In this document: in pieces, positions 27,651-50,839 of the stretch | Layout of the letters: each line of letters begins with the position of its first letter | How positions within the stretch are numbered: position 1 is the stretch's first letter | Assembly: GCA_026002995.1 (NCBI GenBank) | Contig: BPGK01000001.1 | Coordinates: 2,170,001 to 2,234,000 of the forward strand | Direction of reading: 5' to 3' | DNA length: 64,000 nt | Source of the DNA: Gaiellaceae bacterium | GTDB lineage: Bacteria; Actinomycetota; Thermoleophilia; Gaiellales; Gaiellaceae | Made by a program: the position numbers and the translations under genes | Notes under the pieces: model-generated | The model's input: the letters and a program-made list of their open reading frames with translations, nothing else | Databases searched by the model: none | Told to the model about the DNA's origin: nothing

Positions 27651-27955
27651 GCGGTCTCCTCTCGGCCGGGGCGGGGCTGTCGAGGTGGTCGCGAGAGGGC
27701 CGCTTGGAGCCGGAGCCGCTTGCCCGGCCGACGCCGAGCCGCATCGTTCCCCGTGCCGGGGCCTCTCGTCTTGCCACCTTGGCGGCTTCCGCCAGGTTGG
27801 CGGGCGCTTCGGGCGAGCTCCCTAGCGCCGCTCTGGATGCTGTGTCAGTAGGAAGTCAGCCAAACGATGGACGCTTCTTACGCGCGACCTTCTCTCCAAA
27901 CAACCGCTCTCACACGAAACGGAGCCTGGGCGCCGCGTACGAAACCGCGGCGCCC
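27651..27955 (-). promoter_or_regulatory. 305-bp intergenic region with candidate promoter and hairpin
   Basis: No gene is seen. On the minus strand TTGTTT (27903-27898), a 17-nt spacer and TAAGAA (27880-27875) form a candidate promoter for the AAA-protease gene, giving a leader of about 220 nt. Within that leader an imperfect 12-bp stem (CCACCTTGGCGG against CCGCCAGGTTGG, 27774-27803) could be regulatory. Confidence 0.35.
27928..27955 (-). terminator. Perfect 10-bp hairpin after the nuclease gene
   Basis: GGGCGCCGCG at 27928-27937 and CGCGGCGCCC at 27946-27955 are exact complements with an 8-nt loop. The stem begins at the base after the stop codon of the minus-strand nuclease gene, which closes the McrBC-side operon. 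Confidence 0.6.
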
Positions 27956-36017: not shown

Positions 36018-36742
36018 GCGACCCCGCCAAGGTGCGGCTCGATGACGCGCCAGATTCCCGCTTCGCGCTCAGGCCTTGGGACGAGTGCCTGCCGGTTGAC
36101 GCGGTATGAGGGCTTAAACCCCGCTCCCGCGACGACGTCCGCGACCGGGATGCGGACCGAGCGGACGTCGCTGAGAAGGATCAGCCATCGGAACTCCGGC
36201 GAGCCCCAAAGCTCGTTGGTCGCTGCGTCGCTGCACCCCTTGCCGATCACCCGCGCTGCGCACTCGAAGTACTGCCCGGTCGAGAAGAGCGCAAGCGTTC
36301 CTTCGAAGATCCTGTCCCAGGTCGTCGGCGCTCGGCCGCGCGACCCGGCGAGCCCCGAGTCGCGAAGGCCCCACGCGGCCAGTTCTCCGTGAGCCCGTTC
36401 CCGAATCTCAGCCGCCTGGCTCGGAAGCCAAGCATCGAGGCGTCCGAGCTCGACTCCGCTCTGCACCGTCTTTCGTAAGTGGCGCGCCGCCTCCTCGCCC
36501 ACCGCGGGGAGGAAGAGGAACGACGGCGGGCGCGGCGCCCGAAGCGACACGGGAGCGAAGACATCGGTTCCGGCGAGCGCCGCGATCTCTCGGTCGACCT
36601 CGGCGACGAGTCGCTCTACCTCGTGGAGACGATCGAGCAGCGCCCCGGCCCGTGCGATCGTCTTCCCGTCGCGCCGCGCCTGGGCCGCATCGATCAACTC
36701 GTCGATGCGGCGGCGAGTCGCCTCGAGCCACTCGCTGCTCAT
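36014..36742 (-). CDS. Unknown protein of the methyltransferase-helicase operon
   Basis: The 242-residue protein has a helical, charged N-terminal 70 residues (possible coiled coil) and a mixed C-terminal part with FSTGQYFECAARVIGKGC and RIPVADVVAGAG. I do not recognise it. It is coupled by ATGA overlaps to the helicase upstream and to the Cys/His-rich gene downstream, so it belongs to the same functional unit. Confidence 0.6.
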   Translation of the reverse strand: MSSEWLEATRRRIDELIDAAQARRDGKTIARAGALLDRLHEVERLVAEVDREIAALAGTDVFAPVSLRAPRPPSFLFLPAVGEEAARHLRKTVQSGVELGRLDAWLPSQAAEIRERAHGELAAWGLRDSGLAGSRGRAPTTWDRIFEGTLALFSTGQYFECAARVIGKGCSDAATNELWGSPEFRWLILLSDVRSVRIPVADVVAGAGFKPSYRVNRQALVPRPEREAGIWRVIEPHLGGVA

Positions 36743-39700
36743 CTGGCCTCGTCGCCCACGCTCTGCGAGCGCTCCCTCGGGGTGATGCACATCCAGCAGA
36801 CGACGCGCAGGTCCCCCACCTCGATCTCGGGCAGGTCGGGGATCGGCGCAGGTTTCTCGAGACCGAGGTCGTCGGCGAGCGCCTTGATGCGCGCGATCCG
36901 CTCGCTCGCCCCCAGGCCCTCCTCCCGCAGGATCGCCCGGAACTGCCGCAGGTACCGCTCCGCGTACGGAGCCCGCAGGCGCTCGCAGAGCTCGTCGGCC
37001 TCGGCCCCCGTCATCCCCTCCGGAAGCGGGCCCGCTCGCACGAGCTCGACCGCCCGCAGCATCGCGCGCGGCACCTCCGGACGCACGTTGGCGGGGTCGG
37101 CGCGGAAGTTCCAGTCGGCGACGATCCGCTCCGAGGCGATCTCCCAGGCAGCCACCGCCCGCTCGAGCGCCCAGTCGTCGAGCACGCGCGGCTCCCCGGC
37201 TCCCCCCGGCGGCCGCGCAAGCTCGAGCGCGAGCAAGGTCGCACTCTCGCCGTTCCCGAGCCCGACGCGATCTCCCTGCACGGCGCAGAGCCGCGCGACC
37301 GGGTCGTCTGCGACCCGATAGCAGAAGACGAACGTCTCGACGCCCACCGCCCCCGCGAAGCCGCTCCCGGCTCCGTAGGGCAGCGCCTCGATCCGCTCGC
37401 GCGCACCCTCCTGCAGCGCTTGGCGGAGCTCCTGCCGCAGCTCCTCGCCGGACACGATGCCTCCGTGTGGGCTTCCCTCCAGGAAGAGCGTGGGGTCGCC
37501 GCGCCGCAGCCGCTCGATCTCCTCGCGCCGCTCGGCGAAGACGGTGTCCTCGGTGCGCGACCCGGGGAGGATCTCCGCCGCCACCCCGATCGAGGCCGCC
37601 GCCTGCGAGATCTTGCGATGCAGCCGCTCCTCGAGCCCGAGCAGCTCGTCGAGCACCCGGTCCGGGAAGAAGCAGCGCAGGTAGACGTCCGACCACTGCG
37701 ACCCGATGCGGTCGATCCGCCCGTGGCGCTGCACGAGCCGCATCGGATTCCAGGGGAGGTCGTAGTTGACGATGTGCCGCGCCTGCTGGAGGTTGACGCC
37801 CTCGCTCAGGACGTCGGTGGTCACGAGCAGGTCGTAGAGGTCGGGCGTCCCCTCGGGCGCCTCGCTCGAGACCGGCGCGAAGCCCTGCACCACCGAGCCC
37901 TTCTCGCCGCGGCTCCCTGAGATCGCCGCCACGCGGCCGTGATAGGCGGCCAGTCTCGGGTTGCGCTCGACTTCCCGCTCGATCCCCTCCAGGATCCAGT
38001 CGACGGTGTCGCTGTAGTAGCTGAAGACGAGCACCTTGCGGCCGTCGCGCACCTTCTGCTCGCCGACGAGCTCCGCTTCGGCCTCGGCTGCGATCGCCTC
38101 GAGCTCCGCCACGAGCGCGCGCAGCTTGGGGTCGGAGTCGACATCGAGCGCGTCCGCCTCGGCCGCGAACGCGAGCAGGAGGTCGCGGTCCGCCTCCACG
38201 TCCCGCCGCAGCCGGGCGACGTCGAACTCGCCGGCGGGCTCGAGGTCGGCCTCGAGCTCGGTGAGCAGCTCCTCGGCCTCGTCGGAGTCGGCCGCGGCCC
38301 AGGCGCCGAGGCTGTCACCCGTCGCGACGTAGCCGCGCCCGAGCAGGTCGAGGAACGCGTCGTGGGAGGCGGCCATCTTGCGGCAGGTGGCCGCAAACGC
38401 GCGCGCCGAGCTCTCGAAGCGCTTGAGCAGGCCCGAGCGGACGAGCCCTGTGTGCAGGATCTCGTACTGCTCCGCCGGCCTGCCGAGGCGGTAGCGCGAG
38501 GGCGAGTAGCGGGCCATCGTCAGCTCGCCGGACTGCGGGTCGAGCGGGTCGTCGACCTCGAGCGCCGCCGCGAAGCGCTCGAGGAAGCCGGGCAGCGCGC
38601 CCTCGAGGTCGTAGTCGACCCGGACGCGGTGGGGTCGGGAACTCGACCGGCACCTCGGTCCCGTCGCGCGAGCTCGACCCGGTCGTCGGCGTACCAGCGT
38701 GCGTACGAACGGCCGGGTTCTCCGCACGGCGACCGCGTCGAGGACGTCGAAGAGGTGGTCGGGCGAGAGGTCGCCCGGGTCGCGCCGCTGCGCCTCGTGG
38801 AAGTGCGCCCGCAGGGACGGGATCCCCTGGCTGCAGGAAGGCCGCGTCGTCCTTGACGAAGTAGGAGAGAAGCGCGTAGCAGGTCCCAGAGCGAGTTGTT
38901 GACCGGCGTCGCCGTCAGCAGGACGAGCTTCTTCGGCGGCGTCCGCCGGCGAGCAGGCGGCGAAGCGCCTCCGCGCGCTGCGTGGCGGGGTTGCGCGCGT
39001 TGTGCGCCTCGTCGACGACGACGAGCGCGTACTCGCGGATGTCCCAGTCGAGCGTCGTCCGACCCCGGCTCGGCCTTGGGGTTGATCCGGGAGTCGGCCA
39101 CGAGCTCGTCGTAGGAGCGCGTCTCGACCCGCATGTCGAAGCGGGCGAGGAACTTCCGCCACGGCCCGTCGCGCAGCGCCGCCGGCGCGACCACGAGCAC
39201 GCGCTGCCGGTTCTCGAAGTACGCGCGCCGGATCAGCTCGCCGGCGATGAACGTCTTGCCGAGCCCGACCTCGTCGGCGATCGAGCACGCCGTTTCGCTC
39301 GTCGAGGATGCGGGTCGCGCGCAGCAGGCCGTGCTCCTGGAAGCGGGTGAGGCGGATCTCCCGCGTGCGCGCGGCTCGGCCTCCGCGCCGAAGCTCGTCG
39401 CCGTACAGCTCCCAGAGCATGCGCAGGAAGACGTCGTAGGGCGGCGTGCGGGAGGAAGCGCGGCTCGTACAGCGCCGCGAGGTCGAACGGCTCGGCCTCG
39501 TCCCACCAGCGCTCGAACCAGTCCGCGACCCGCTCGACGACGCACGGCTGGAACTGGCCGAGCGCGAGCTCGAGGTTGCGCGCGAGGCCCGCGCCGGTGA
39601 GGTTGGCGCTGCCCGCGACGACCCCGTCGAGGCCCGGTCTCGACGAGGATCGCCTTCGCGTGCAGGAAGTGGTCACGCAGCCGGCGCACCTCGACCCGGC

Positions 39701-40103
39701 CGCTGCGCAGCCACTCGACGAGCGCGCGCGTCGCCCGGTCGGCCTCGATGCGTGAAGCCGAGCGCGTCACGCGCCTCGACGAGCCGGCGAAGTGGCTCGC
39801 GAGCGCCTCCTCCCGCGCCCGCCGCGCCGCCGCCTGCGGCGTCTCGCCGTCGCGCAGACGACGCCGGCGCTCGGGCTCCTGCGGCTCGGCACCGACGAGT
39901 AGCCGTACGCGGCCCGCCCGCGCGAGCTGCTCGCGGAGCTGCGTGAAGCCGCCGACGTCGAAGTAGGCGGTCGCGACCGCGAGCGCGTACGGCTCGCGGA
40001 GCTGCCCGTCGAGGCCGTCGAGGTAGCGGCGCAGCGCCTCGGCGATCGTCTCCCCGTCGCCGTTCAGGAGCACCTCGGAGCGGAAGCCCGCCCGGACGCT
40101 CAT
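36739..40103 (-). CDS. PLD-nuclease-SNF2 helicase fusion, many frameshifts in the 5' half
   Basis: Stitched across frames the protein has about 1,100 residues. The N-terminal phospholipase-D-type nuclease has HFLHAKAILVET then VVAGSANLTGAG (HxK and GSxN). The SNF2-type helicase follows with EVGLGKTFIAGEL, VVVDEAHNARN, LLTATPVNNSLWDL and, intact in one frame from about 38635 to the stop, VTTDVLSEGVNLQQA and VQRHGRIDRIGS. The start MSVRAGFRSEVLLNGDG at 40103 overlaps the methyltransferase stop. At least ten single-base insertions lie between 38637 and 39650. The family resembles DISARM DrmD-like and related restriction helicases, here fused to a nuclease. Confidence 0.75.
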
Positions 40104-43100
40104 CACGGCCACCGCCAGCGACGTCAGGCAGGCGAAGTGCGCGAGCACCCGCTCGCAGCCGCGGCCCGTAGTCCCAGCTTGGATGGAACGTCTCGAAGAC
40201 GTGGCGCAGCTGCCGTCTCGTCGAGGCCGTACAGGTGCGCGACGCAGGCGTCGAGCTCGGCGATCAGCTCCTCCTTCTCCTCGCCGAGGTCACGCTCGCG
40301 ACGGGCACGCCGACGCGCGCCGCCCAGTCGGCGTAGCGCTCGTCCACGCGGCGCAGCCGCCCGGCGATCTCCTCCACCCGCCGCCGGCAGCGGGTGGTCG
40401 CGGCCCGGGTCCGGGTTCGGGAACGAGTTGAAGAGGAAGAAGTTGACGTGCGTCTCGACGACGCAGCGGGCGTACCAGTCGAGCGGGAGCGAGCAGAGCA
40501 GGCCGAGCAGGAAGGCCTCGTCGCGCTCGTCGCCGCGTGCCGGAAGAGGAGATACGGCGCCTGGTTGACGAGCACGACGTTCGGCGGCACGAGGCGGCGA
40601 TCACCGTGCGCTGGTTGGTCCGGTTCGTGACGTCGCGGAAGGCGATCCGCGGGCGCAGGCAGGGCAGCGTCGAGGGATCGTCGTGCCAGGCGGCCGGCAT
40701 CTCCGAGAAGGCCGAGTTCGACTCCGCGAGCCGCCTCGCCGCCGCTCGACTCCTCGGACGACGACGCCGGATCCAGGCCCAGGCGTAGCGCTCACCCGTA
40801 TCGGGTTCCCAGATGTTGAACGACGAGCCCTTGTACACCGGCCAAGCCTGTCGCCCGCGATCGCTCGCGGCTCAGGTCGAGAAGCTGCTTGTCGTTGGTC
40901 GCGTGGAGCTCCGCTGAACGGGTCGCCCGCTCCAAGCCTGTGCTCATCACGCTCCGATCGAGGGGTGCGAGCGAAGCTGCAGGAAGACGTCCACGCGACT
41001 CGGCGCTCGGGAGGAGCGGGAACGACGCCGACTCCGTCCAGGCGAGAAGGCCGTCGACGGGCAGGCCGTCGGTGTCCGCAGTCCTTGCCCGCGGCGTACT
41101 CGGCGAGGCGCGGAACGGCCCGCGCACGGGGATCGTCCCGACCCCGCCTCCCGGCCGCGGAGGACGAGCCGCAACGGTGTACGCGGGCTCGGCGTCGTCG
41201 AACACCCAGCCCCCGGTGTTGAGCAAGCGTCGTGACGTCGGCGAAGCCGCCCTCGGCGAGCACCGCCTGGCGCCACTCGCTCGAGCCCTTCGCCGAGAGC
41301 GCTGAGCGGGGGAGGACGACGCCGGCCGCGCCGCCGTCGCGGGCGAGCCGCCAGAACCGCCAGGCGAACGCCTTGTAGAGGTCGGGGTCCCCCGTGCCCA
41401 TGCCGGGAAGGGCCCGAGGAGAGTACCTGCGGAGTGCGCTCTGCGTCCGCCGAGCGCTTGCTCGTACTCGGCACGAGATCGGGGCGTCGACTGCGCAGCC
41501 GCTCGATCTCCCGCCGCTGATCGCTCCTGCGGCAGCGCTTCGAGGCCGGGGAAGCGGAGCGCCCAGAAGCCGAGCTCCTCGACAGTCGCTCTCCTCCCAG
41601 GGCGGGTTGCCGAGCAGGCAGTCGAAGCCCGGCCGCTCGCGCAGGAACACCTCCGGGAAGGCGACCGGGAAGTGGAGCGCCTGCAGCTCGCGGGCGAGCG
41701 CGGCCGCGCGCGCCGCGTCTGCGTGCGCGGCGAGCTCCTCCTCGGTGACGCTGCCCGGCAATGTCGCTTCGCCCAGCCGGTGCGCGACGACGAGATCGAG
41801 CGCCGTCCGGAGCGGCGCGAGCTCCTGCTCGGCCGCGGCGGCGGCGGCCCGCGCCTCGTCGACGTCGGCGGAGGTCGCGTCGGCGATCGTCGCGAGCCGG
41901 CGCAGGTGCGGCTCCGCGCGGCCGAGGAACGCGAGCAGCGGGTCGCGCAGCACGGAGAGCTGCTCGTCGTGCGTGGGGTCGAGCGCCTCGATCGCTTCCT
42001 CGATCGTCGCGACGCCCGTGAGGCTGTTCCCCTGCACGAGGTTGCGGTCGAGGAACGAGAGCGGCAGGCCGGGGACGAAGGTGTGGATCCAGAGCGCGAG
42101 GCGGGCGAGCTCGACCGCGATCAGGTTGAGGTCGACCCCGTAGATGCAGCGTCTGGCGACGAGGCGGCGGAGCAGGCTCGAGCTCTCGATCTCGACGCCT
42201 GCGAGCGGGCCGAGCGCCGTCCGGGCGGCGGCCCGCAGCGCCTCGAGCTCGCGCTCGACCCCGGGAACACGGTGCTCGGCGAGGAAGCCCGAGAAGCGGG
42301 CCTCGATGCGGTCGACGGCGGCGACGAGGAAGTGCCCCGAGCCCATCGCGAGGTCCGCGCAGCGGAAGTCGAAGAACGCCTCGGCCGCCTTGGCCTCCTC
42401 GCCCGCCTCGAGCAGAGCCGAGATCCGCTCGAGGTGCGCCTCGAGCGCAGGCGCGAGCGCGCGGTCGAGCAGGTGCTCGACCGCGAACGGCTTCGTGAAG
42501 TAGGAGCCTGTCGCCTTGCGCGCGCCCGAGCGGTCGTGGAAGTAGACCTCGCCGGCACGCACGACCGGCTCCTCGCCCGGCTTGGCAGGGACGTAGGTCC
42601 CCTTCTTGTCGAGTGCGAGATCGATCGGCGCGAGCGAGAGCTCGGACTCGAGCAGGCCTTCGTAGATCGTCCCGAACTCGCGCACGGACAGGCTGCGGAA
42701 GTCGACCGGGCCCGGCGCGCCCTCGCGCGTGAGGTCGACGAGCAACGCCGCGAGCGCCGGGCCGATCTCGGCGTTGGTCAGCTCCAGGCCGTCGATCGCA
42801 GCTCCGGCCCGGCTGAGCGCAGGATCCGAGGAGAAGAGGCTGCCGCCGTAACGCGGCACCCCCCACTCGCGGTGACCGAGCTCGATCGCGCGGAAGAGCG
42901 CCCGCACGCGTCCCCAGAGGTCCCGCTGGGCGGGGTCGAAGTCGAGCTCGCCCGCGCGCCGGCGCTCGGCCAGCTCGACGGCGAGCCGCTTGAGGGAGTT
43001 CTCGCGGTAGAGCTCGTTCGCCTCGTAGGGAAGGAGGCCGCGGTCCTCCCCGTAGGCGACGAAGAGCAGCCGGAAGAGGATCACGAGCGTCTGCTCGTAG

Positions 43101-44152
43101 GCGTCGCCGAGGTCATGCTCGGTCGGCTCGTGCGTGCCCGCGGCGTGGCGCGCGACCGCCGTCGCGAGGGCGGGGACGGCGTCGAAGTAGACCCGGTCGC
43201 GCAAGCGCGCCCCGAGGTCGGCGGCGAAGCGGCCGGAGGACTCGAGCAGCTCCTCGAGCGTCCCTCCCTCGTCGAGCGCGCGCGGCGAGAAGACGAGGTC
43301 GAGGTAGCCGGCGCGGTCCGTCGGCAGGAGCGCGAGGTCGAGCCCGAAGCTCGTCAGCGCGCGCCCGCGCCGGCCGACGCCGACGTCTGGCTTGACCGAG
43401 TAGAGACGGATCTGCCGCCCGCGGGTGAGGACGACCCAGGCGAGACCACGCCGCTCGGCGACCGCGAGCGCGTGCGAGACGGGGCTCTGCCCGCCGAAGC
43501 GGGGCTCGCCGCGGTCGAAGTCCTCCCGCTCGTCCAGGAAGACGGCGAGCGCGCGGCGGCGCTCGTTCACGAGCAGCTCGACCGAAAGCGCGTCCGCGGA
43601 CTCGGTGCGGAAGCCAAGCGCGGCGACGAGGTCGCGGCCGGAGCGGCCGAGCAGCGGCCGGGCGCGCTCGCACGCCTCCGCCCAGTCCGGCCGCGTCGGT
43701 ACTCCCTCCATGAGGTCGTGGAGCGCGAGCAGCCCGTCGTTGCGGACGCCCGGAAGGGCCTGTTCCGCCTCATCGAGGCTCTCGAGGAGCAGCCGCAGAG
43801 CGGCGTGGCCGTCGGGCTCGTCGAGAACGGCGGCGGCGAGGCGCGCGGCATGCTCGGGCTCGAGCTCCCGGATCGGCGGCTGCTCGCCGACCGGCCCGCA
43901 GGTGACGGCTTTGCTCGAGCCGCCGTCCGGATACGTGACGACGAGCAGAACCGGCTGGCTTCCGTCCGAGCGGGTGCGCCAGAGGTCGCGCACCGCCTGC
44001 GCGCGGGGACGGGCGGCCGCGCGCGCGAGCGCGACCTCGGCGCGGAAGGAGTCGCCCCGCCCGCGCCACCAGCACTCGGGCGTCAGCCCCCACGGCGGCG
44101 CCTCGACGCGCCACGTTCGCGGCTCGCGCTCGGGAAGGAAGTCCTCAGGCAT
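40103..44152 (-). CDS. Eco57I/type IIG-like adenine methyltransferase, frameshifted in the 3' third
   Basis: About 1,350 residues when frames are joined. The intact 44152-41590 part has an N-terminal restriction-like region and an N6-adenine methyltransferase core. The SAM motif is FDFRCADLAMGSGHFLVAAV, followed by RRCIYGVDLNLIAVELARL and the catalytic LLGNPPWEE. Downstream, MGTGDPDLYKAFAWRFWRL, LNTGGWVFDDAEP, SAELHATNDKQLLDL and YKGSSFNIWEPDTGERYAW lie in successive frames. These are the target-recognition region of this enzyme class (DrmMI/PglX-like size). It overlaps the helicase as TGATG and follows the NYN gene by 15 bp. Confidence 0.78.
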
Positions 44153-44167
44153 GGGATCGACTTCGGC

Positions 44168-44773
44168 TCATCGAGTCATCAGGCCCATGACGGAGTCGAG
44201 CTCGATCGAGGCCCACGAGGTTCGCTTGAGCTCGAACCCGTGATTTGCCCAAGTTGCGTTGATCACCTTGCGACCGCGGGACTGAATCCAGTCCACCGCC
44301 GGCACGTGATCGGCATCACTCGACAGGAGAATCGCTACGTCGTATGCATCCTCGCCCGCGAGTGAGAGGAGATCCGTGACGATCGCCGTATCGACCCCCT
44401 TCTCCGGCGCCCACGTAAAGAGAGCGCCACAGTGCTGGCAGTTCTCGTTGTCGTTGTCACAAGACGAACAGTGCACCTTCCGTCCTTTCGACCTCCGCTC
44501 GCGAACCTTCACGCGGAAGCTCGGCTGGCGGTCAAGGAACGTCTCGAGCCACTGACGCAGCTTGCCCTCACTCGCTGGGTTGACGGAGGCGTAGACCAGC
44601 GTCTCCTCGAGGGAGAGAACCTCGGTGGTGCCAGCAACCTCGAGCTTCTTGCGCGCCTCATCGAGCAGTACGCGTGGAACAGCAGGCCAATCGAGCTTCG
44701 CGCCACCCGACCGCTGATTCCAGTTGAGCTGGAAGTTCCAGAAGTCGATGAAGACGCGCGTTCTGTAAGCCAT
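44168..44773 (-). CDS. NYN/LabA-type endonuclease with inserted zinc ribbon
   Basis: The 201-residue protein has a PIN-like NYN fold: Asp10 in VFIDFWNFQ, GVDTAIVTDLL (Asp128, Asp134) and LSSDADHVPAVDWIQ (Asp153, Asp155). Residues 102-115 form CSSC-x6-CQHC, a zinc ribbon inserted before the catalytic aspartates. NYN proteins usually cleave RNA. It is the first gene of the operon leading into the methyltransferase and helicase, from a good promoter inside the end of the ImmA/IrrE gene. Confidence 0.82.
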   Translation of the reverse strand: MAYRTRVFIDFWNFQLNWNQRSGGAKLDWPAVPRVLLDEARKKLEVAGTTEVLSLEETLVYASVNPASEGKLRQWLETFLDRQPSFRVKVRERRSKGRKVHCSSCDNDNENCQHCGALFTWAPEKGVDTAIVTDLLSLAGEDAYDVAILLSSDADHVPAVDWIQSRGRKVINATWANHGFELKRTSWASIELDSVMGLMTR

Positions 44774-44888: not shown

Positions 44889-44916
44889 AGGATAGCGCAG
44901 ATCATCCGCTTGTCAA
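44889..44916 (-). promoter_or_regulatory. Sigma-70-type promoter for the NYN-methyltransferase operon
   Basis: On the minus strand TTGACA (44916-44911), a 16-nt spacer and TATCCT (44894-44889) match the consensus well. The -35 box overlaps the corrected stop of the ImmA/IrrE gene. The leader to ATG 44773 would be about 110 nt. Confidence 0.6.
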
Positions 44917-45498
44917 CGCGCCTCAGGAGGGTCGGACAGACCGAAGGCGTACAGCCGCCACTGCATCGCCGTCGGGGAGACGTCGAAGCGGCGGGCGCAG
45001 GCGGCGACCGCCTCGGCGGGCGTCGTGGCTCTGGGCCACGAGCTCCGCCCACGCCTCCCGCACAGCCGGCTCCGGCATGAGGAGCTCGGCGGCGAAGACG
45101 TTCGCCTCGCGCTCGAGCGCGCGGTCGGTCGCCTCGGTCAGGTCGACCGGGCGGCAGTAGGAGGGCGCGGGCGAGGCCGCGCGGCCCTCGAGGCAGTGGC
45201 AGACCCAGTGGCCGATCTCGTGCGCGATCGTGAAGCGGAAGCGGCGAAGCGGTGGCGCGTCGCGGCCGAACGCCTTCTCGCGCGCGTTCAGGACGATCCG
45301 CCGCTCGGCGGGCAGGAGCATGCCCGAGCAGGCAAGGTCCCAGGCCTCCTCCACGCGCAGGCCGAGCAGGTCCTCCGCGATCGCCTCGACCGGCACCGGC
45401 AGCTCGGGACCGCCGAAGGTGGCGAGGTAGCGCTCGCGGACGGCGTGCGCGCGCGGCTCCTCGTACTTCCGGTCCGAAGCAGCCGCTTCCGACGTCAT
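44913..45498 (-). CDS. ImmA/IrrE-family metallopeptidase, frameshifted near its C terminus
   Basis: The protein has the ImmA/IrrE zinc motif FTIAHEIGHWVCH and the downstream glutamate region REANVFAAELLMPEPAVREA. After AELVAQSHD the frame ends in arginine-rich noise at 44923, while the other frame continues AEAVAACARRFDVSPTAMQ and WRLYAFGL, the expected family ending, and stops at 44913; a one-base indel near 45025 is implied. ATG 45498 is preferred. These peptidases cleave regulators to derepress genes. It follows an XRE-like regulator gene, its probable substrate. Confidence 0.78.
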
Positions 45499-45579
45499 CA
45501 CGGCAGACGTCAACCTACTGGACTCGTCTCGAGATGTCACCTCCACCCGAGGCGGAGTCAGCCCGCCCGAGCCGAACTC

Positions 45580-45993
45580 TTACGGCGGTCGGCCCCTCCG
45601 TGGCGGGCGCAGGCATACGAGTAGCTCGCCCTCTCTGCCGGCCCAGAGGGCGTCGAGCGGCCAGGCGGCGGGCCGCTCCCCCGAGTGGGAGAACGGCATC
45701 GCCGAAACCGCACGAGCTGACGCACGACCTCGGAAGCGGCGGAGGCCCATCCTCACCCGCATCGCGAGCATGGGCGGCGCCTTGCGCTCCTCGAGGGCGA
45801 GCTCGGCGAAGGTGGCGAGCGTCTCCGCCGACGGCGGCTGCGCGGGGACGGAGGCGAGGTAGCCGTCGATGAGCGTCACCAGTGCGTCGCGCTCGTCGCC
45901 GGCGCGCTCGAGGTAGTCGCGCACGTCGGGGTGCTCGCCGCGCGCGTAACGGGCGGCGAAGTCCTCGAACAGGAGCTCGGCCTCGGGTCTCAC
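45580..45993 (-). CDS. XRE-like regulator with RGExPDVRxYLERAG motif (copy 1, degraded C terminus)
   Basis: The N-terminal 90 residues (FAARYARGEHPDVRDYLERA, then a helical LASVPAQPPSAETLATFAEL) match the regulator at 47430-48011 closely. Beyond about residue 100 the frames are mixed, and the helix-turn-helix part seen in copy 2 is not recoverable in one frame. GTG 45993 follows AGGAG by 9 nt and lies 11 bp after a sigma-factor stub. The ImmA/IrrE gene comes next. Function is inferred from that neighbourhood. Confidence 0.6.
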   Translation of the reverse strand: MRPEAELLFEDFAARYARGEHPDVRDYLERAGDERDALVTLIDGYLASVPAQPPSAETLATFAELALEERKAPPMLAMRVRMGLRRFRGRASARAVSAMPFSHSGERPAAWPLDALWAGREGELLVCLRPPRRGRPP

Positions 45994-46004
45994 GCGTACA
46001 GCTC

Positions 46005-46103
46005 CTACAGGCGGGCGCAGGCGCGGTGCAGCGCCTGATCGACGGCGTTTCGCTTCATCCCGAGCTCGGCGGTGATCTCCTCGATCTCCTTGCGAGGGGC
46101 CAT
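46005..46103 (-). pseudogene. Sigma factor region 4 stub (copy 1)
   Basis: A 32-codon frame reads KEIEEITAELGMKRNAVDQA and ends RACARL. It corresponds to region 4 of the sigma factor at 48008-48544 (EIPEIAERIGRKPNAVHQIH). Everything upstream is missing and replaced by two small plus-strand genes. Confidence 0.65.
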
Positions 46104-46139
46104 CTTGCGTGCGTCGCGACGAGGAGGCACTCTGGCCGA

Positions 46140-46295
46140 GTGGACGAGGAGCAGGGGATCTACCGCGGCGAGGTGCTCGTGATGCTCGGCGCGCTCGCAG
46201 ACATCCGCGTGGCAGTCGACCGCATTCTCCGCTACATAGAAGGGGAAGACGATGAAGAAGAGGAGACGGAAGAAGATCTCCCTCCTGACGCCTGA
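46140..46295 (+). CDS. Small acidic protein, 51 residues
   Basis: GTG 46140 gives MDEEQGIYRGEVLVMLGALA then DIRVAVDRILRYIEGEDDEE, a helix followed by a poly-acidic tail. There is no known family. It overlaps the next small gene by 44 bp in another frame, and the same purine-rich DNA encodes the acidic tail here and a basic head there. Confidence 0.5.
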   Translation: MDEEQGIYRGEVLVMLGALADIRVAVDRILRYIEGEDDEEEETEEDLPPDA

Positions 46296-46407
46296 GGAGC
46301 GTGCCGGATTCGAGGAGCGGCTCGAAGCGCTGCTTCGCGCCTACGAGCGGGCCAAGATCGAGATCGAGACCGGCAAGCGCCCGCCGCCGGAGCCGTACAC
46401 CTCCTGA
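46252..46407 (+). CDS. Small basic-headed protein, 51 residues
   Basis: ATG 46252, after an AAGGGGAAG ribosome site, gives MKKRRRKKISLLTPEERAGF and a helical body ending PPPEPYTS. There is no known family. It overlaps the acidic gene, and its stop is 2 bp from the convergent HD-type pseudogene. Confidence 0.5.
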   Translation: MKKRRRKKISLLTPEERAGFEERLEALLRAYERAKIEIETGKRPPPEPYTS

Positions 46408-46409
46408 AG

Positions 46410-46850
46410 TCAGATCAGCGCGGCGCGCGAAAGCCAGGTCGAGAAGAGGTCGAGGTCGGGCTCGATCCCGACGCGCGGCAGGTGCAGGCGGTCGGCGTCC
46501 CAGCAGGCGCCGATCGTGGGGTCGGCGCTCGTCAGCCCGTCGGAGTGGAGCTCGATCGCGTCGCGCAGAAGCGCGAGCCGCTCGGGCCCGACGCGGAGGA
46601 CGCCGGTCTCGGCGAGCTGACGCGCGTAGGCGGCTCCGCGCGGCCCGTGCCCGGGGTCGTAGTGCTCGTTCTCGCGGCGGCTGTCGTCGAGGAGCCCGAA
46701 CCGGAAGACGAGCGCGCGGTCGCGGCCGGGAAGCCCGTCGGCGAGCGAGAGCCCCGTGGCGGCGGCGCAGCGCCAGTGCTCCTCGCCGTGCCGGGCGGAG
46801 TCGCGCGAGCGAGCAGGGCTCCGTGCCCGAGCTCGTGCGACGCGCGCTCT
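46410..46850 (-). pseudogene. HD-superfamily protein lacking the HD histidine, 5' end unclear
   Basis: A single frame carries RHGEEHWRCAAATGLSLADG, VFRFGLLDDSRRENEHYDPG, HGPRGAAYARQLAE and TIGACWDADRLHLPRVGIEP, the pattern of small HD hydrolases. The usual HD doublet (LLHDSRREN) reads DD here. No start codon is found in frame before the domain, so the 5' end is missing or frameshifted. Probably inactive. Confidence 0.55.
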
Positions 46851-46903
46851 CGTGCCTGGGTCGACCGTCTCCGACCTCGGCCTTACGCCGACACGACGGC
46901 GTC

Positions 46904-47122
46904 CTACGCGACGCTGAGCGTGAGCGTCTCACGCGTCGCGCCGGCGCTGATGCTCGCTCGCTCCTCGGAGGTGAGAGATCGAAGCCACTCGTCGAGGGCA
47001 TCGCGTACGAGCTCGCGCGCCTCCTCGAGCGTGGGGGCGCACGTGATCACGCCCGGGAGCTCTTCCACCGTCGCGCGCACCCAACCTTCCTCGTCCGGCT
47101 CGAAGAGAACGTGCAGCTCCAT
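46904..47122 (-). CDS. HicB-like antitoxin
   Basis: The 72-residue protein has the partial RNase-H-like HicB core: VLFEPDEEGWVRATVEELPG then TLEEARELVRDALDEWL. ATG 47122 was chosen, and 47155 is possible. The matching HicA-like gene is on the opposite strand 47 bp away, an unusual divergent layout. Confidence 0.75.
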   Translation of the reverse strand: MELHVLFEPDEEGWVRATVEELPGVITCAPTLEEARELVRDALDEWLRSLTSEERASISAGATRETLTLSVA

Positions 47123-47169
47123 CGCCCTCACAGGGTACTGGCCCGCATGGCGCACGCGATACTCCGCCC

Positions 47170-47362
47170 GTGACCGCGCTTCGCGAGCTCGAGCGGCATC
47201 TACGCGAGCACGGCTGCGAACGCGTACGGCGCGGCGCGAAGCATGACGTCTGGCGGAGTCCAGGAGCGGAGCGCCCTGTCACGGTGCCACGCCATCGCGA
47301 GATCCCGTTCGGGACGGCGCGCGATCTGCGGTCAGCTCGGGGTGCTCGACCCGCCCCGCTGA
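47170..47362 (+). pseudogene. HicA-like toxin with a one-base frameshift
   Basis: GTG 47170 begins VTALRELERHLREHGCERVR and continues to TVPRHREIPFGTAR, a HicA double-stranded-RNA-binding-like toxin with its catalytic-type histidine. The family ending AICGQLGVLDPPR lies in the next frame, stopping at 47362; the break falls in a GCGCGCG run near 47320. One base removed or added would restore 63-64 residues. Confidence 0.7.
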
Positions 47363-47429
47363 CCCACCGCACTCTCGCCGCAGGGGCGGCCTCGGGCAGG
47401 GTGCGAGCAGAGCACATCCAGCTCTTCCG

Positions 47430-48011
47430 TCAGTCCGCGCCCGTAAACAGCCTATCCACCTCGTCCGGCGGCTCTTCGGGCGCGGCGGGAGCGGCCGCGG
47501 CGGCGGGCGGCGGCGGCGCGGTGACGGCGTCCGCGTCGGCTCGCCGGAACGCCGCCTCGGCGGCGAGCGGCGCCGGCCGGACGCCCGCGAGCGCGCGCAC
47601 GTCCGCGTGCAGGAGCTCGCCGAGCGCGTCCCAGACGGAGCGGTCGACCGGCTCGGGGTCGAGGAGGCCGCCCTCGAGCCGGTGGTAGTAGGAGGCGACC
47701 TTCGCCTCCTTCGCAGGATCGAGCCCGAGCGCGCGCACGAGCGCCCCGACCACCGCCTGGCGCGTGAGCCTGCGGCGCAGGCGGAGGACGAGGACGGGCG
47801 GCTGGCGCTCGAGGCTCGCGTGCAGGAGCACGAGCTCCTCCTCGGTCGGCTGCCGCGCCGGGGCGGCTTCCAGGAAGCGGTCGATGAGGCGGCCGAGGGC
47901 CTCCCGCTCGGCGCCCGCGCGCTCGAGGTACGCGCGCACGTCGGGCGCCTCCCCGCGCACGTAGGCGAGCGCGAACTCGTCGAACAGGCGCTCCACGGAG
48001 GGCTCGGTCAC
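47430..48011 (-). CDS. XRE-like regulator with RGExPDVRxYLERAG motif (copy 2)
   Basis: The 193-residue protein has an N-terminal helical module (LALAYVRGEAPDVRAYLERA-type segment, residues about 5-75), a likely helix-turn-helix/XRE-like region (VVGALVRALGLDPAKEAKV, then EGGLLDPEPVDRSVWDALG, about 95-145), and an Ala/Pro-rich tail. I know no named family. The GTG start overlaps the sigma factor stop (GTGA). I infer a factor that controls or sequesters that sigma factor. Confidence 0.65.
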   Translation of the reverse strand: MTEPSVERLFDEFALAYVRGEAPDVRAYLERAGAEREALGRLIDRFLEAAPARQPTEEELVLLHASLERQPPVLVLRLRRRLTRQAVVGALVRALGLDPAKEAKVASYYHRLEGGLLDPEPVDRSVWDALGELLHADVRALAGVRPAPLAAEAAFRRADADAVTAPPPPAAAAAPAAPEEPPDEVDRLFTGAD

Positions 48012-48544
48012 GTCGCCTCCCTGCGCAGCTTCGTGAGCGCGCGGTGGTGGATCTGGTGCACGGCGTTCGGCTTGCGGCCGATCCGCTCCGCGATCTCCGG
48101 GATCTCGAGCCGCTCCTGGTAGCGCAGGCGGAGCACGAGCTGCTCGAGCTCGGTCAGGGCCGCGAGCAGGGCCTCGAAGGCGGAGTCGTCCTCGAGCCCG
48201 GAGGAGGCGTCCGAGGCGGCTCGCTCGAGCCACTCGTCGAGGCCGACCTCCGCGACGCGCCCGGGGGAGAAGTGCTCCTTGATCTTCCACGTGGTCACCT
48301 GGTGCACGACCACGCGGAAGGGGACGCGGTAGCGGCGGCCGCGCGCGAGCTCGGAGAGGAGGCGGATGGCGACCTCGCCGGCGACCGCGATCGCCTCGTC
48401 CTCGCGCCGCAGGCGCGCGCGGCAGCGGTCGAGGATGACGCCGTAGTAGCTCTCGACGAGCCCCTTGTGGTCGCCTTCCTCGAGCCGCCTGCGATCGTCG
48501 GCGTCTCGCGCATCGTGCATCGAGGAGACAGTCGTCTCGGCCAC
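48008..48544 (-). CDS. ECF-like RNA polymerase sigma factor
   Basis: The 178-residue protein has a sigma-70 region 2-like N-terminal half (LVESYYGVILDRCRARLRRE) and a region 4 helix-turn-helix (LRLRYQERLEIPEIAERIG, then RKPNAVHQIHHRALTKLRRE). GTG 48544 stands 6 nt after a TAAGAT box, so it is probably leaderless. It is cotranscribed with the RGExPDVR regulator and is duplicated as a stub at 46005-46103. Confidence 0.75.
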   Translation of the reverse strand: MAETTVSSMHDARDADDRRRLEEGDHKGLVESYYGVILDRCRARLRREDEAIAVAGEVAIRLLSELARGRRYRVPFRVVVHQVTTWKIKEHFSPGRVAEVGLDEWLERAASDASSGLEDDSAFEALLAALTELEQLVLRLRYQERLEIPEIAERIGRKPNAVHQIHHRALTKLRREAT

Positions 48545-48550
48545 GGCCCG

Positions 48551-48556
48551 ATCTTA
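48551..48556 (-). promoter_or_regulatory. Leaderless -10 box of the sigma factor gene
   Basis: TAAGAT on the minus strand lies 6 nt before GTG 48544, the geometry seen for other leaderless genes here. Confidence 0.45.
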
Positions 48557-48586
48557 CGACGCCCGTGGGGCCAGCTTGCCGAGCGC

Positions 48587-49184: not shown

Positions 49185-49580
49185 CTACGGGCGCAGCTCG
49201 ACGAAGCCGGCGGCGGCGAAGTCGCCGTCGAAGGCGAGCGCCTCCCGGATCCGCAGCCTGCGCATGAGCGCGAAGCTCGTCGCGTCCACGAAGGAGTACG
49301 GCCGCTCGTCGTGCCGCCGCAACCACTCCCATGCCTCGGCCTCGACATCGCCGTCCACGCGCTCGACGACCACGGGGGCGGCGCGCAGGCTGTCCACCCA
49401 GCGGATCGCTCGTCGGTGGCCCGCGCGCCTCGCCAGGAGTGTCCACGTCTCGCCGAGAACGAGGTTCGAGGTCACGACCCGTTCACCGGGGAGGCGCGCG
49501 GCGAGCTCCATCGCCTCCGCGTGCCGCCGGTCGCGGGCTATCGCTCGGGCGTACCAGAACGACGTGTCAGCGAAGGCCAC
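49185..49580 (-). CDS. PIN-domain (VapC-like) ribonuclease toxin
   Basis: The 131-residue protein has the PIN acidic residues: Asp in FADTSFWYA near the start, Glu in SNLVLGETWTLLA, and Asp in YSFVDATSFALM and AFDGDF. GTG 49580 follows GGAGGAG closely and lies inside the antitoxin gene, giving a 43-bp overlap. It is an RNase toxin paired with the upstream ribbon-helix-helix protein. Confidence 0.85.
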   Translation of the reverse strand: MAFADTSFWYARAIARDRRHAEAMELAARLPGERVVTSNLVLGETWTLLARRAGHRRAIRWVDSLRAAPVVVERVDGDVEAEAWEWLRRHDERPYSFVDATSFALMRRLRIREALAFDGDFAAAGFVELRP

Positions 49581-49810
49581 GCCTCCTCCGAGATCGGGCC
49601 GTACAGGAACTCGTCGATGTCCTCGACCGGCTCGACGTCGTCGAAGACGGGTAGTTGAGTCAGGCAGTTGTCGAACGGCTCGGACAGCTCCCGCTGCAGG
49701 GCCTCGCGAACGAGCGCGCTCTTGGACATGCCGCGCGCCGCCGCCTCCTGCTCGAGACGGTCGTCGAGCTCGGGGTCGATCACGACCTGGATCCGTCGCA
49801 TCCGCGCCAT
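49538..49810 (-). CDS. Ribbon-helix-helix antitoxin
   Basis: The 90-residue protein starts RIQVVIDPELDDRLEQEAAA then RGMSKSALVREALQREL, a clear RHH DNA-binding module (residues 5-45). The C-terminal half (FDDVEPVEDIDEFLYGPI) would block the PIN toxin. The ATG directly abuts a perfect palindrome, so autorepression is very likely. Confidence 0.85.
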   Translation of the reverse strand: MARMRRIQVVIDPELDDRLEQEAAARGMSKSALVREALQRELSEPFDNCLTQLPVFDDVEPVEDIDEFLYGPISEEAWPSLTRRSGTPER

Positions 49811-49842: not shown

Positions 49843-49903
49843 CACCGTGCCGTAAGGGCGACGCCGTCACCGCGCGACTCCCGGGAAACGAAAGGAGTCG
49901 CTC

Positions 49904-50839
49904 ATGCTCGAGACGCTGATCCAGCTCGGCGAGCCCGTGGAGCACCGCGGGATCCTCGTCTGCCCCCTCTTCCCCCGCCGCGACCCGGTCGCGAGCTACC
50001 TCACCCTCGACGAGGCGCTCGCGGGCGGCCTCGCCGTCCGCGAGGTGGACGAGGCCGGCAGCGTGCCCGAGCTGGTCGTCGAGAACCCGCTCGCCGAGCG
50101 CGTCCTCCTCTACGACGGAGAAGAGCTCGTGGGAGCGAAGCAGAACCGGATCCTGAACGTGTCCGTGCTCGTGGAGGCGCGCTCGACGCTTCGGGTCCCC
50201 GTCTCCTGCGTCGAGCAGGGGCGCTGGCGACAGGAGAGCGAGCGCTTCGCGGCGGCGCCGCACATCTCCCACGCCGAGCTCCGCCGGCGCAAGGCCGAGA
50301 CGCTGGCCGCGCAACCGCTCGCCCGCGGGCTCGCCCAGGGCGAGATCTGGGACGCCGTGCGCGAGAAGGCGGTGCGCATGTCCGTGCACTCGGCGACCGG
50401 GGCCAGCATCGACCTCTACCGCCGCTACGAGCGCGACCTGCGCGCGCTCGAGGACGCCTTCCCGGCGCAGCGCGGCCAGTGCGGCGCCGTGCTCGGCCTG
50501 GGCCCCGAGCTCTGCCTCGACCTCGTCTCCCGCCCCGACGCCTTCTGCCGCCTGTGGCCGAAGCTCCGCGCCGGCTACCTGCTCGACGCGCTCGAGCGCC
50601 TCGACGGCGAGCCGACCCCCGCCGCGGAGGTGGAGGCCTTCCTGGGCGAGCTCGGCGGCGCGCTCCGCTCGCGACGGCCCTCGGTCGGCCTCGGCGAGGA
50701 CGTGCGCCTGCGCGGCGAGCGGGTGGTCGGCTCCGGCCTCGAGCTGGAGGGTGAGCTGATCCAGCTCTCCGCCTTCCGGAGCAACGACGCCGGCCGCCGG
50801 GCCTTCGGACGGATCGCCAGACCGAGCGCTCGGCGCTGA
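49904..50839 (+). CDS. ARPP-1 domain protein
   Basis: The 311-residue protein matches the ARPP-1 family (formerly DUF6569): GEPVEHRGILVCPLFPR, TLDEALAGGLAVREVDEAG, VPELVVENPLAERVLLYDGE and ELVGAKQNRILNVSVLVEA. The family often occurs in predicted conflict systems, but its activity is unknown. AAAGGAG precedes ATG 49904. It marks the edge of the defence island before the Liv operon. Confidence 0.75.
   Translation: MLETLIQLGEPVEHRGILVCPLFPRRDPVASYLTLDEALAGGLAVREVDEAGSVPELVVENPLAERVLLYDGEELVGAKQNRILNVSVLVEARSTLRVPVSCVEQGRWRQESERFAAAPHISHAELRRRKAETLAAQPLARGLAQGEIWDAVREKAVRMSVHSATGASIDLYRRYERDLRALEDAFPAQRGQCGAVLGLGPELCLDLVSRPDAFCRLWPKLRAGYLLDALERLDGEPTPAAEVEAFLGELGGALRSRRPSVGLGEDVRLRGERVVGSGLELEGELIQLSAFRSNDAGRRAFGRIARPSARR

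Follow-up and report, generated by a model that had tools for sequence, protein, structure and literature searches.

Proteases of the M78 family relieve repression by cutting helix-turn-helix (HTH) repressors, as in the IrrE-DdrO and CapP-CapH pairs (PMC4374696, PMC10904395). In the radiation response of Deinococcus, PprI (IrrE) cleaves DdrO between Leu108 and Arg109 (PMC4374696), and both CapP and PprI are activated by single-stranded DNA (ssDNA) (PMC10904395). IrrE appears in a 2020 review of regulated proteolysis in connection with a one-component repressor (PMC7593790), while a 2022 review of non-canonical extracytoplasmic function (ECF) sigma factors describes three soluble anti-sigma mechanisms, none of them with a dedicated protease (PMC8999054). 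The locus described here combines such a protease with a sigma factor. It lies in a stretch of 64,000 nucleotides from a Gaiellaceae bacterium (contig BPGK01000001.1), hereafter the window, which spans positions 2,170,001-2,234,000 of a 2.6-Mb single-contig genome. Its components are a sigma factor (SIG), a small regulator (REG) and an ImmA/IrrE-type peptidase (ImmA), with ARPP-1 as a predicted target gene. SIG, REG and ImmA are proposed to form a cytoplasmic switch in which REG holds SIG, ImmA cuts REG and SIG is released, a reading to which we give a little better than even credence.

The locus resembles CapH-CapP, known from cyclic oligonucleotide-based antiphage signaling systems (CBASS) and other immune operons, in that a CapP-like M78 peptidase adjoins an HTH-fold partner and in its link to defence genes. 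It differs in having a third gene, for a dedicated sigma factor, and in the acidic REG that is tied to SIG. Moreover, CapH-CapP has an operator before one adjacent operon, whereas the targets here appear to be recognized through a -35/-10 element. PprI/IrrE-DdrO is similar in pairing an M78 protease with an XRE-fold partner, which is cleavable in DdrO and predicted to be so here, and in having a small dispersed regulon with a common promoter motif. The Leu-Arg cleavage of DdrO also resembles a conserved hydrophobic-x-Arg in REG, where a cut is only predicted. However, DdrO is a repressor that binds its motif at promoters, while the common motif here resembles a sigma promoter, and the ImmA proteins here, at about 190 residues, are too short to include a GAF domain like that of PprI. 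Sigma/soluble anti-sigma pairs share the co-transcription of sigma factor and soluble partner as well as autoregulation, but they work by redox change or partner switching, whereas here a cytoplasmic M78 protease would act instead and no Zn/ASD domain was found in REG. A preliminary description of this DNA, made from the sequence, had named no described system of this composition, and searches of the open-access literature for a sigma/IrrE system found none. The protease type is known and the sigma logic is known; within that literature their combination is undescribed.

One intact sigma-regulator pair is present in the window:

48008-48520, minus strand: SIG, an ECF-type sigma factor of 170 residues (NCBIfam sigma70-ECF above cut-off, Sigma70_r4, ATG spacing)
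47430-48011, minus strand: REG2, a proposed soluble anti-sigma factor

SIG matched the NCBIfam sigma70-ECF model TIGR02937 at 50.0 bits (cut-off 42.9) with residues 28-176 covered, and sigma region 2 on its own gave no Pfam match. REG (48011-47430, minus strand) overlaps SIG by 4 bp in a start-stop overlap. This overlap had already been noted in the preliminary description, which placed the sigma gene at 48544-48008. The gene stands, but its start is probably ATG 48520 and not GTG 48544, because 48544 falls within SIG's own promoter. The ATG lies 38 nt from the start of the -35 block, as it does in five other genomes, and this fixed distance in six genomes suggests that the SIG transcript is leaderless. 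No ImmA gene adjoins the intact pair.

The family was collected with a REG profile, and more than 90 loci were scanned with profiles for SIG, REG, ImmA and ARPP-1. A single-sequence search of genome contigs with REG gave no match. A closer REG alignment yielded 11 loci from Gaiellaceae, Miltoncostaeaceae, Thermoleophilaceae and other Thermoleophilia, and a broader one was too diverse for pattern searching. REG was found in about a quarter of the Thermoleophilia genomes (102 of 399), which belong to 45 of 128 genera; a sample of the phylum contained 14 REG-positive genomes out of 396, all but one within Thermoleophilia. Hidden Markov model (HMM) searches placed SIG directly upstream of REG on the same strand in 85 of 90 full-length REG loci. 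The other five, read by eye, showed a divergent sigma gene in four cases; the remaining one has a sigma-like tail where the contig ends. ImmA lies no more than 3 kb downstream of REG in 84 of the 90 loci (61 on the same strand, 23 convergent), and four of the six loci lacking it stop at a contig edge. When the order was searched with the SIG profile, all 22 matches of at least 90 bits adjoined REG; matches below 90 bits were generic sigma factors, or partial or contig-edge copies of SIG. A lack of recurrent sigma or ImmA neighbors around the regulator was looked for and not found, the association being almost invariant, and on account of this near-invariant neighborhood the three genes are taken as one system. 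Two distant loci (L027:6924-13022 and L142), one of them outside the class, have an extra gene between SIG and REG. Both operons run into an SbcD-like gene, followed in L027 by an SbcC-like gene, while the L142 DNA ends earlier. Judged by gene order, these loci form a second subtype of the system.

The upstream DNA of SIG and that of ARPP-1 have two blocks in common, CGTAAG and GACT, with 18-19 nt between them:

48530-48558, minus strand: SIG promoter-like element CGTAAG-N19-GACT, followed by the putative leaderless start
49851-49879, plus strand: ARPP-1 promoter-like element
49904-50839, plus strand: ARPP-1 (Pfam PF20208), 311 residues, predicted SIG regulon member

Counted throughout with a slightly relaxed pattern, the element precedes 18 of 20 ARPP-1 and 48 of 73 SIG genes, none of 93 REG genes and 2 of 81 ImmA genes, with 2.0% of random windows matching. 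Four exact matches occur in the window, where 0.13 are expected, and the whole genome has eight sites against none for the reversed pattern. Within one family, 11 REG-positive genomes gave 45 matches to the element and 24 to its reverse, whereas 15 REG-negative genomes gave 26 and 61, respectively. Sites that were checked lead into a gene start in 16 of 23 cases in REG-positive genomes and in 2 of 17 in REG-negative ones; without SIG and ARPP-1, the genes that yielded the motif, the figure is 6 of 10. Independent ARPP-1 loci, fetched separately and many of them on other contigs than SIG, matched the pattern in 12 of 14 cases, and the remaining two are clear variants (CATAAG, or GGCT for GACT). 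The first block comes in two lineage variants, GTAAG and GTCAG, and in 13 of 13 genomes SIG and ARPP-1 carry the same one. Because the two genes share a non-palindromic element with the block spacing of a -35/-10 promoter and with matching lineage variants, SIG very probably drives both its own gene and ARPP-1 from it. Three sites in the genome (503,052; 2,197,854, which is window position 27854; and 2,405,814) lead into no convincing gene start and may have arisen by chance. The one in the window (27854-27882, minus strand) is an exact copy; an AAA+ ATPase reading frame follows about 340 nt downstream, and no clear start codon lies near the site.

ARPP-1 matched PF20208 at 280 bits (cut-off 27) and co-occurs with REG (Fisher p 3e-12). 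It is suspected to be an antiviral enzyme or immunity gene. A Foldseek search gave no significant match for it; the structural model was weak (predicted local distance difference test, pLDDT, 67) and was not used. The paper on ARPP proteins lists WYL, Nudix, HIRAN and deacetylase neighbors and names no sigma factor (PMC9503650). Its ARG-centred ADP-ribose antiviral systems share with the present locus the ARPP-1 protein and inducible control, the latter being a prediction here. The ARPP-1 leader contains a further feature:

49874-49901, plus strand: inverted repeat GCGACTCC-N12-GGAGTCGC, stretching from the ARPP-1 -10 block to its ribosome-binding site

Such a repeat, which overlaps the -10 block or follows directly behind it, was found in the ARPP-1 leaders of the window and of loci L061 and L231-L240. 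Its sequence varies by lineage and is paired in many (GCGACTCC/GGAGTCGC, GTGACTCC/GGAGTCAC and CTCGTG/CACGAG), and a 5' mRNA hairpin or an operator is suggested. Beyond ARPP-1, the element lies upstream of a Cys-rich protein without known family in three genomes, with a close variant before a distant homologue in a fourth. One of these genes (225 residues, L157:4787-5464, genome position 1,414,786) has the SIG element and a putative leaderless start, and the protein also occurs in G004 and G111. Genes preceded by the element in a single genome include a PLD-HerA protein, HsdM, a Cas3g helicase and an AddB-like nuclease. Although chance may account for part of these matches, the share of repair and defence genes among them is notable.

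REG2 consists of an N-terminal helical domain (residues 1-67), an XRE-like domain (67-148), a linker and a C-terminal helix with the motif DEVDRLF (183-189). Its AlphaFold2 model (pLDDT 83) shows N-terminal helices, a compact helical region at 67-148, disorder at 149-169 and a well-placed C-terminal helix. The 67-148 region can be aligned with numerous XRE and lambda-repressor domains, among them SaPI2 Stl, SinR, 434 Cro and ClgR, with moderate agreement (Z 5-7, root-mean-square deviation mostly 2-4 A), so that structure prediction backs the XRE-like region proposed earlier for this copy. No family name was obtained for REG from Pfam or NCBIfam, Foldseek gave no significant match, and sequence searches of the PDB returned weak, uninformative matches only. 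Across 88 homologues the median net charge of REG is -12, all of them have an acidic N-terminal domain, and the segment corresponding to the recognition helix has a median charge of -1.5. The linker is variable except for Arg157, which 86 of 88 retain and which mostly follows a hydrophobic residue; the C-terminal DE[VI]DxLF is present in 78 of 88 (loose pattern). From this conservation, the Arg157 motif is likely a protease site, and the C-terminal motif could be a docking or packing element.

In the main rival explanation, REG resembles DdrO or CapH in binding DNA and represses the SIG operon and perhaps ARPP-1, with ImmA cleaving it and SIG serving as an amplifier. Some observations count in its favor, and some weigh against the anti-sigma reading. 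The XRE-like fold is usually DNA-binding, HTH_31 was matched in 4 of 10 REG members (best E 4e-4), and the partners of M78 peptidases are usually HTH repressors. The fold matches of REG reach Z 5-7 only, and no anti-sigma family was matched in Pfam or NCBIfam, although divergent anti-sigma domains often escape detection. The paired repeat in the ARPP-1 leader could serve a repressor as its operator. In addition, ImmA is not always within the operon (the 23 convergent loci), its genes mostly lack the element, and part of the CGTAAG sites that belong to neither SIG nor ARPP-1 will have arisen by chance. Yet REG is acidic even at its recognition-helix equivalent, and the element is not palindromic; for these reasons an anti-sigma role is preferred to DNA binding. 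The inverted repeat is also lacking in SIG promoters, and REG is never found apart from a sigma gene, which a mere repressor would not need. We therefore regard a repressor REG as a serious but unlikely alternative.

The peptidase in the window matched Pfam M78 (PF06114) at 48 bits (cut-off 22), and HExxH is present in 79 of 79 ImmA homologues. The capP model of PADLOC, which has no curated cut-off here, was the best match for all six ImmA proteins tested (E 1e-21 to 1e-27), and by this comparison its nearest known counterpart is CapP. In the anti-sigma switch, the sequence itself bears out the operon structure, the obligate partnership, the shared promoter and the protease motif. It also supports the view that SIG recognizes CGTAAG-N18/19-GAC(T/G) and transcribes its own operon, ARPP-1 and lineage-specific repair or defence genes. 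The remaining steps are conditional. We infer that REG, made from the same mRNA, would bind SIG and hold it inactive as a soluble XRE-fold anti-sigma factor. A signal, most likely ssDNA from DNA damage or phage attack by analogy with CapP and PprI, would activate ImmA, which is predicted to cut the disordered linker of REG at or next to [FYLM]-x-Arg157. The freed SIG would then amplify its own operon and turn on ARPP-1 and the other genes. The preliminary description had proposed a stress switch of this kind, with the regulator holding or repressing the sigma factor and the peptidase cutting the regulator, and it is still the preferred reading. REG might instead be a positive partner or chaperone of SIG, with cleavage by ImmA ending the response, as its conservation and the operon structure would suit any obligate partner. 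This is improbable: it would be unusual for a feed-forward loop to have no brake, and known M78 peptidases work by removing an inhibitor (PMC10904395). Whether the locus represents a new class of sigma control, in which a cytoplasmic CapP/IrrE-type protease responds to DNA damage or infection by cutting a soluble XRE-fold anti-sigma factor, to release a sigma factor with an ARPP-1-centred immunity and repair regulon, is in our view evenly balanced.

The preliminary description read the window as containing a duplicated cassette. All the genes that it named in the two copies were found where it placed them, and the intact pair is confirmed; a second full cassette is not, the rest being decay products. 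Copy 1 (46103-44913) starts about 1.3 kb downstream of the intact pair and contains:

46005-46103, minus strand: SIG remnant, a region 4 stub of 32 residues
45580-45993, minus strand: REG1 remnant, N-terminal half only
45556-45584, minus strand: CGTAAG-N19-GACT element before the ImmA gene
44913-45498, minus strand: ImmA/IrrE (M78) peptidase, HEIGH motif intact (Pfam M78)

REG1 is 50% identical to REG2 over 84 residues (E 5e-20) and ends after about residue 86, with the XRE-like half and the C-terminal motif gone. Its ImmA has a 1-bp insertion near 45021-45030, behind the catalytic core, by which the last ~34 residues are shifted. A third, decayed copy lies outside the window at genome position about 1,392,500, where the promoter and the first ~13 SIG codons are kept and a deletion has joined them directly to REG's XRE half. 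The ImmA that follows is 93% identical to that of the window in the longest aligned segment and has its own frameshift, so the two damaged copies carry single-base indels at different places. Since both ImmA copies found are damaged while the SIG-REG pair is intact, the switch may be crippled in this genome, or the frameshifts may be sequencing errors or assembly indels. The broken state of copy 1 and of the copy at 1.39 Mb could suggest that the whole arrangement is decayed debris whose neighborhood arose by chance, but this idea is refuted by the intact copy 2 and by recurrence in about 90 loci and retains almost no credibility.

The cassette had also been placed directly upstream of a defence operon promoter. 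Control of the neighboring NYN/type IIG restriction operon by SIG was rejected as unsupported, as no copy of the element lies upstream of these genes. The supported SIG target in the window is ARPP-1 (49904-50839). The region 36739-44773 (minus strand) encodes an NYN protein (HEC-09-like), a type IIG restriction-methylase/DrmMI-like gene and a PLD-SNF2 (DrmD-like) helicase; its several frame breaks reflect either a decayed defence island or indel errors. At 46904-47345, a HicB-like antitoxin (minus strand) and a HicA toxin (plus strand) are divergent and do not form one operon, and HicA seems frameshifted near its end. A ribbon-helix-helix (RHH) antitoxin and PIN-domain toxin pair (49185-49810, minus strand) lies between SIG and ARPP-1.

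Toxin-antitoxin genes thus adjoin the cassette, and pairs of the ImmA/ImmR type are common on mobile elements. The ImmR-ImmA pair of ICEBs1 is a mobile-element repressor without a sigma factor; it is alike in combining an HTH protein with an ImmA peptidase, whereas a sigma factor is present only here. The locus might accordingly be an immunity switch of a prophage, an integrative and conjugative element or a toxin-antitoxin system carried on mobile elements. We consider this very improbable, as no relative of REG was found in phage, plasmid and viral-contig collections at the sensitivity of single-sequence and pattern searches, and the regulon link to ARPP-1 spans whole families.

Under the anti-sigma switch, coupling an M78 protease to a sigma factor would replace local derepression by activation across the whole genome through a single promoter code. 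The shared element would provide a direct handle on this response, making the regulon readable from sequence, and ARPP-1, so far only a predicted enzyme, would be placed under a stress switch. The system thereby offers a possible immune or damage regulon for a large and little-studied actinobacterial class. If true, Thermoleophilia would possess a positively acting damage response that is separate from SOS.

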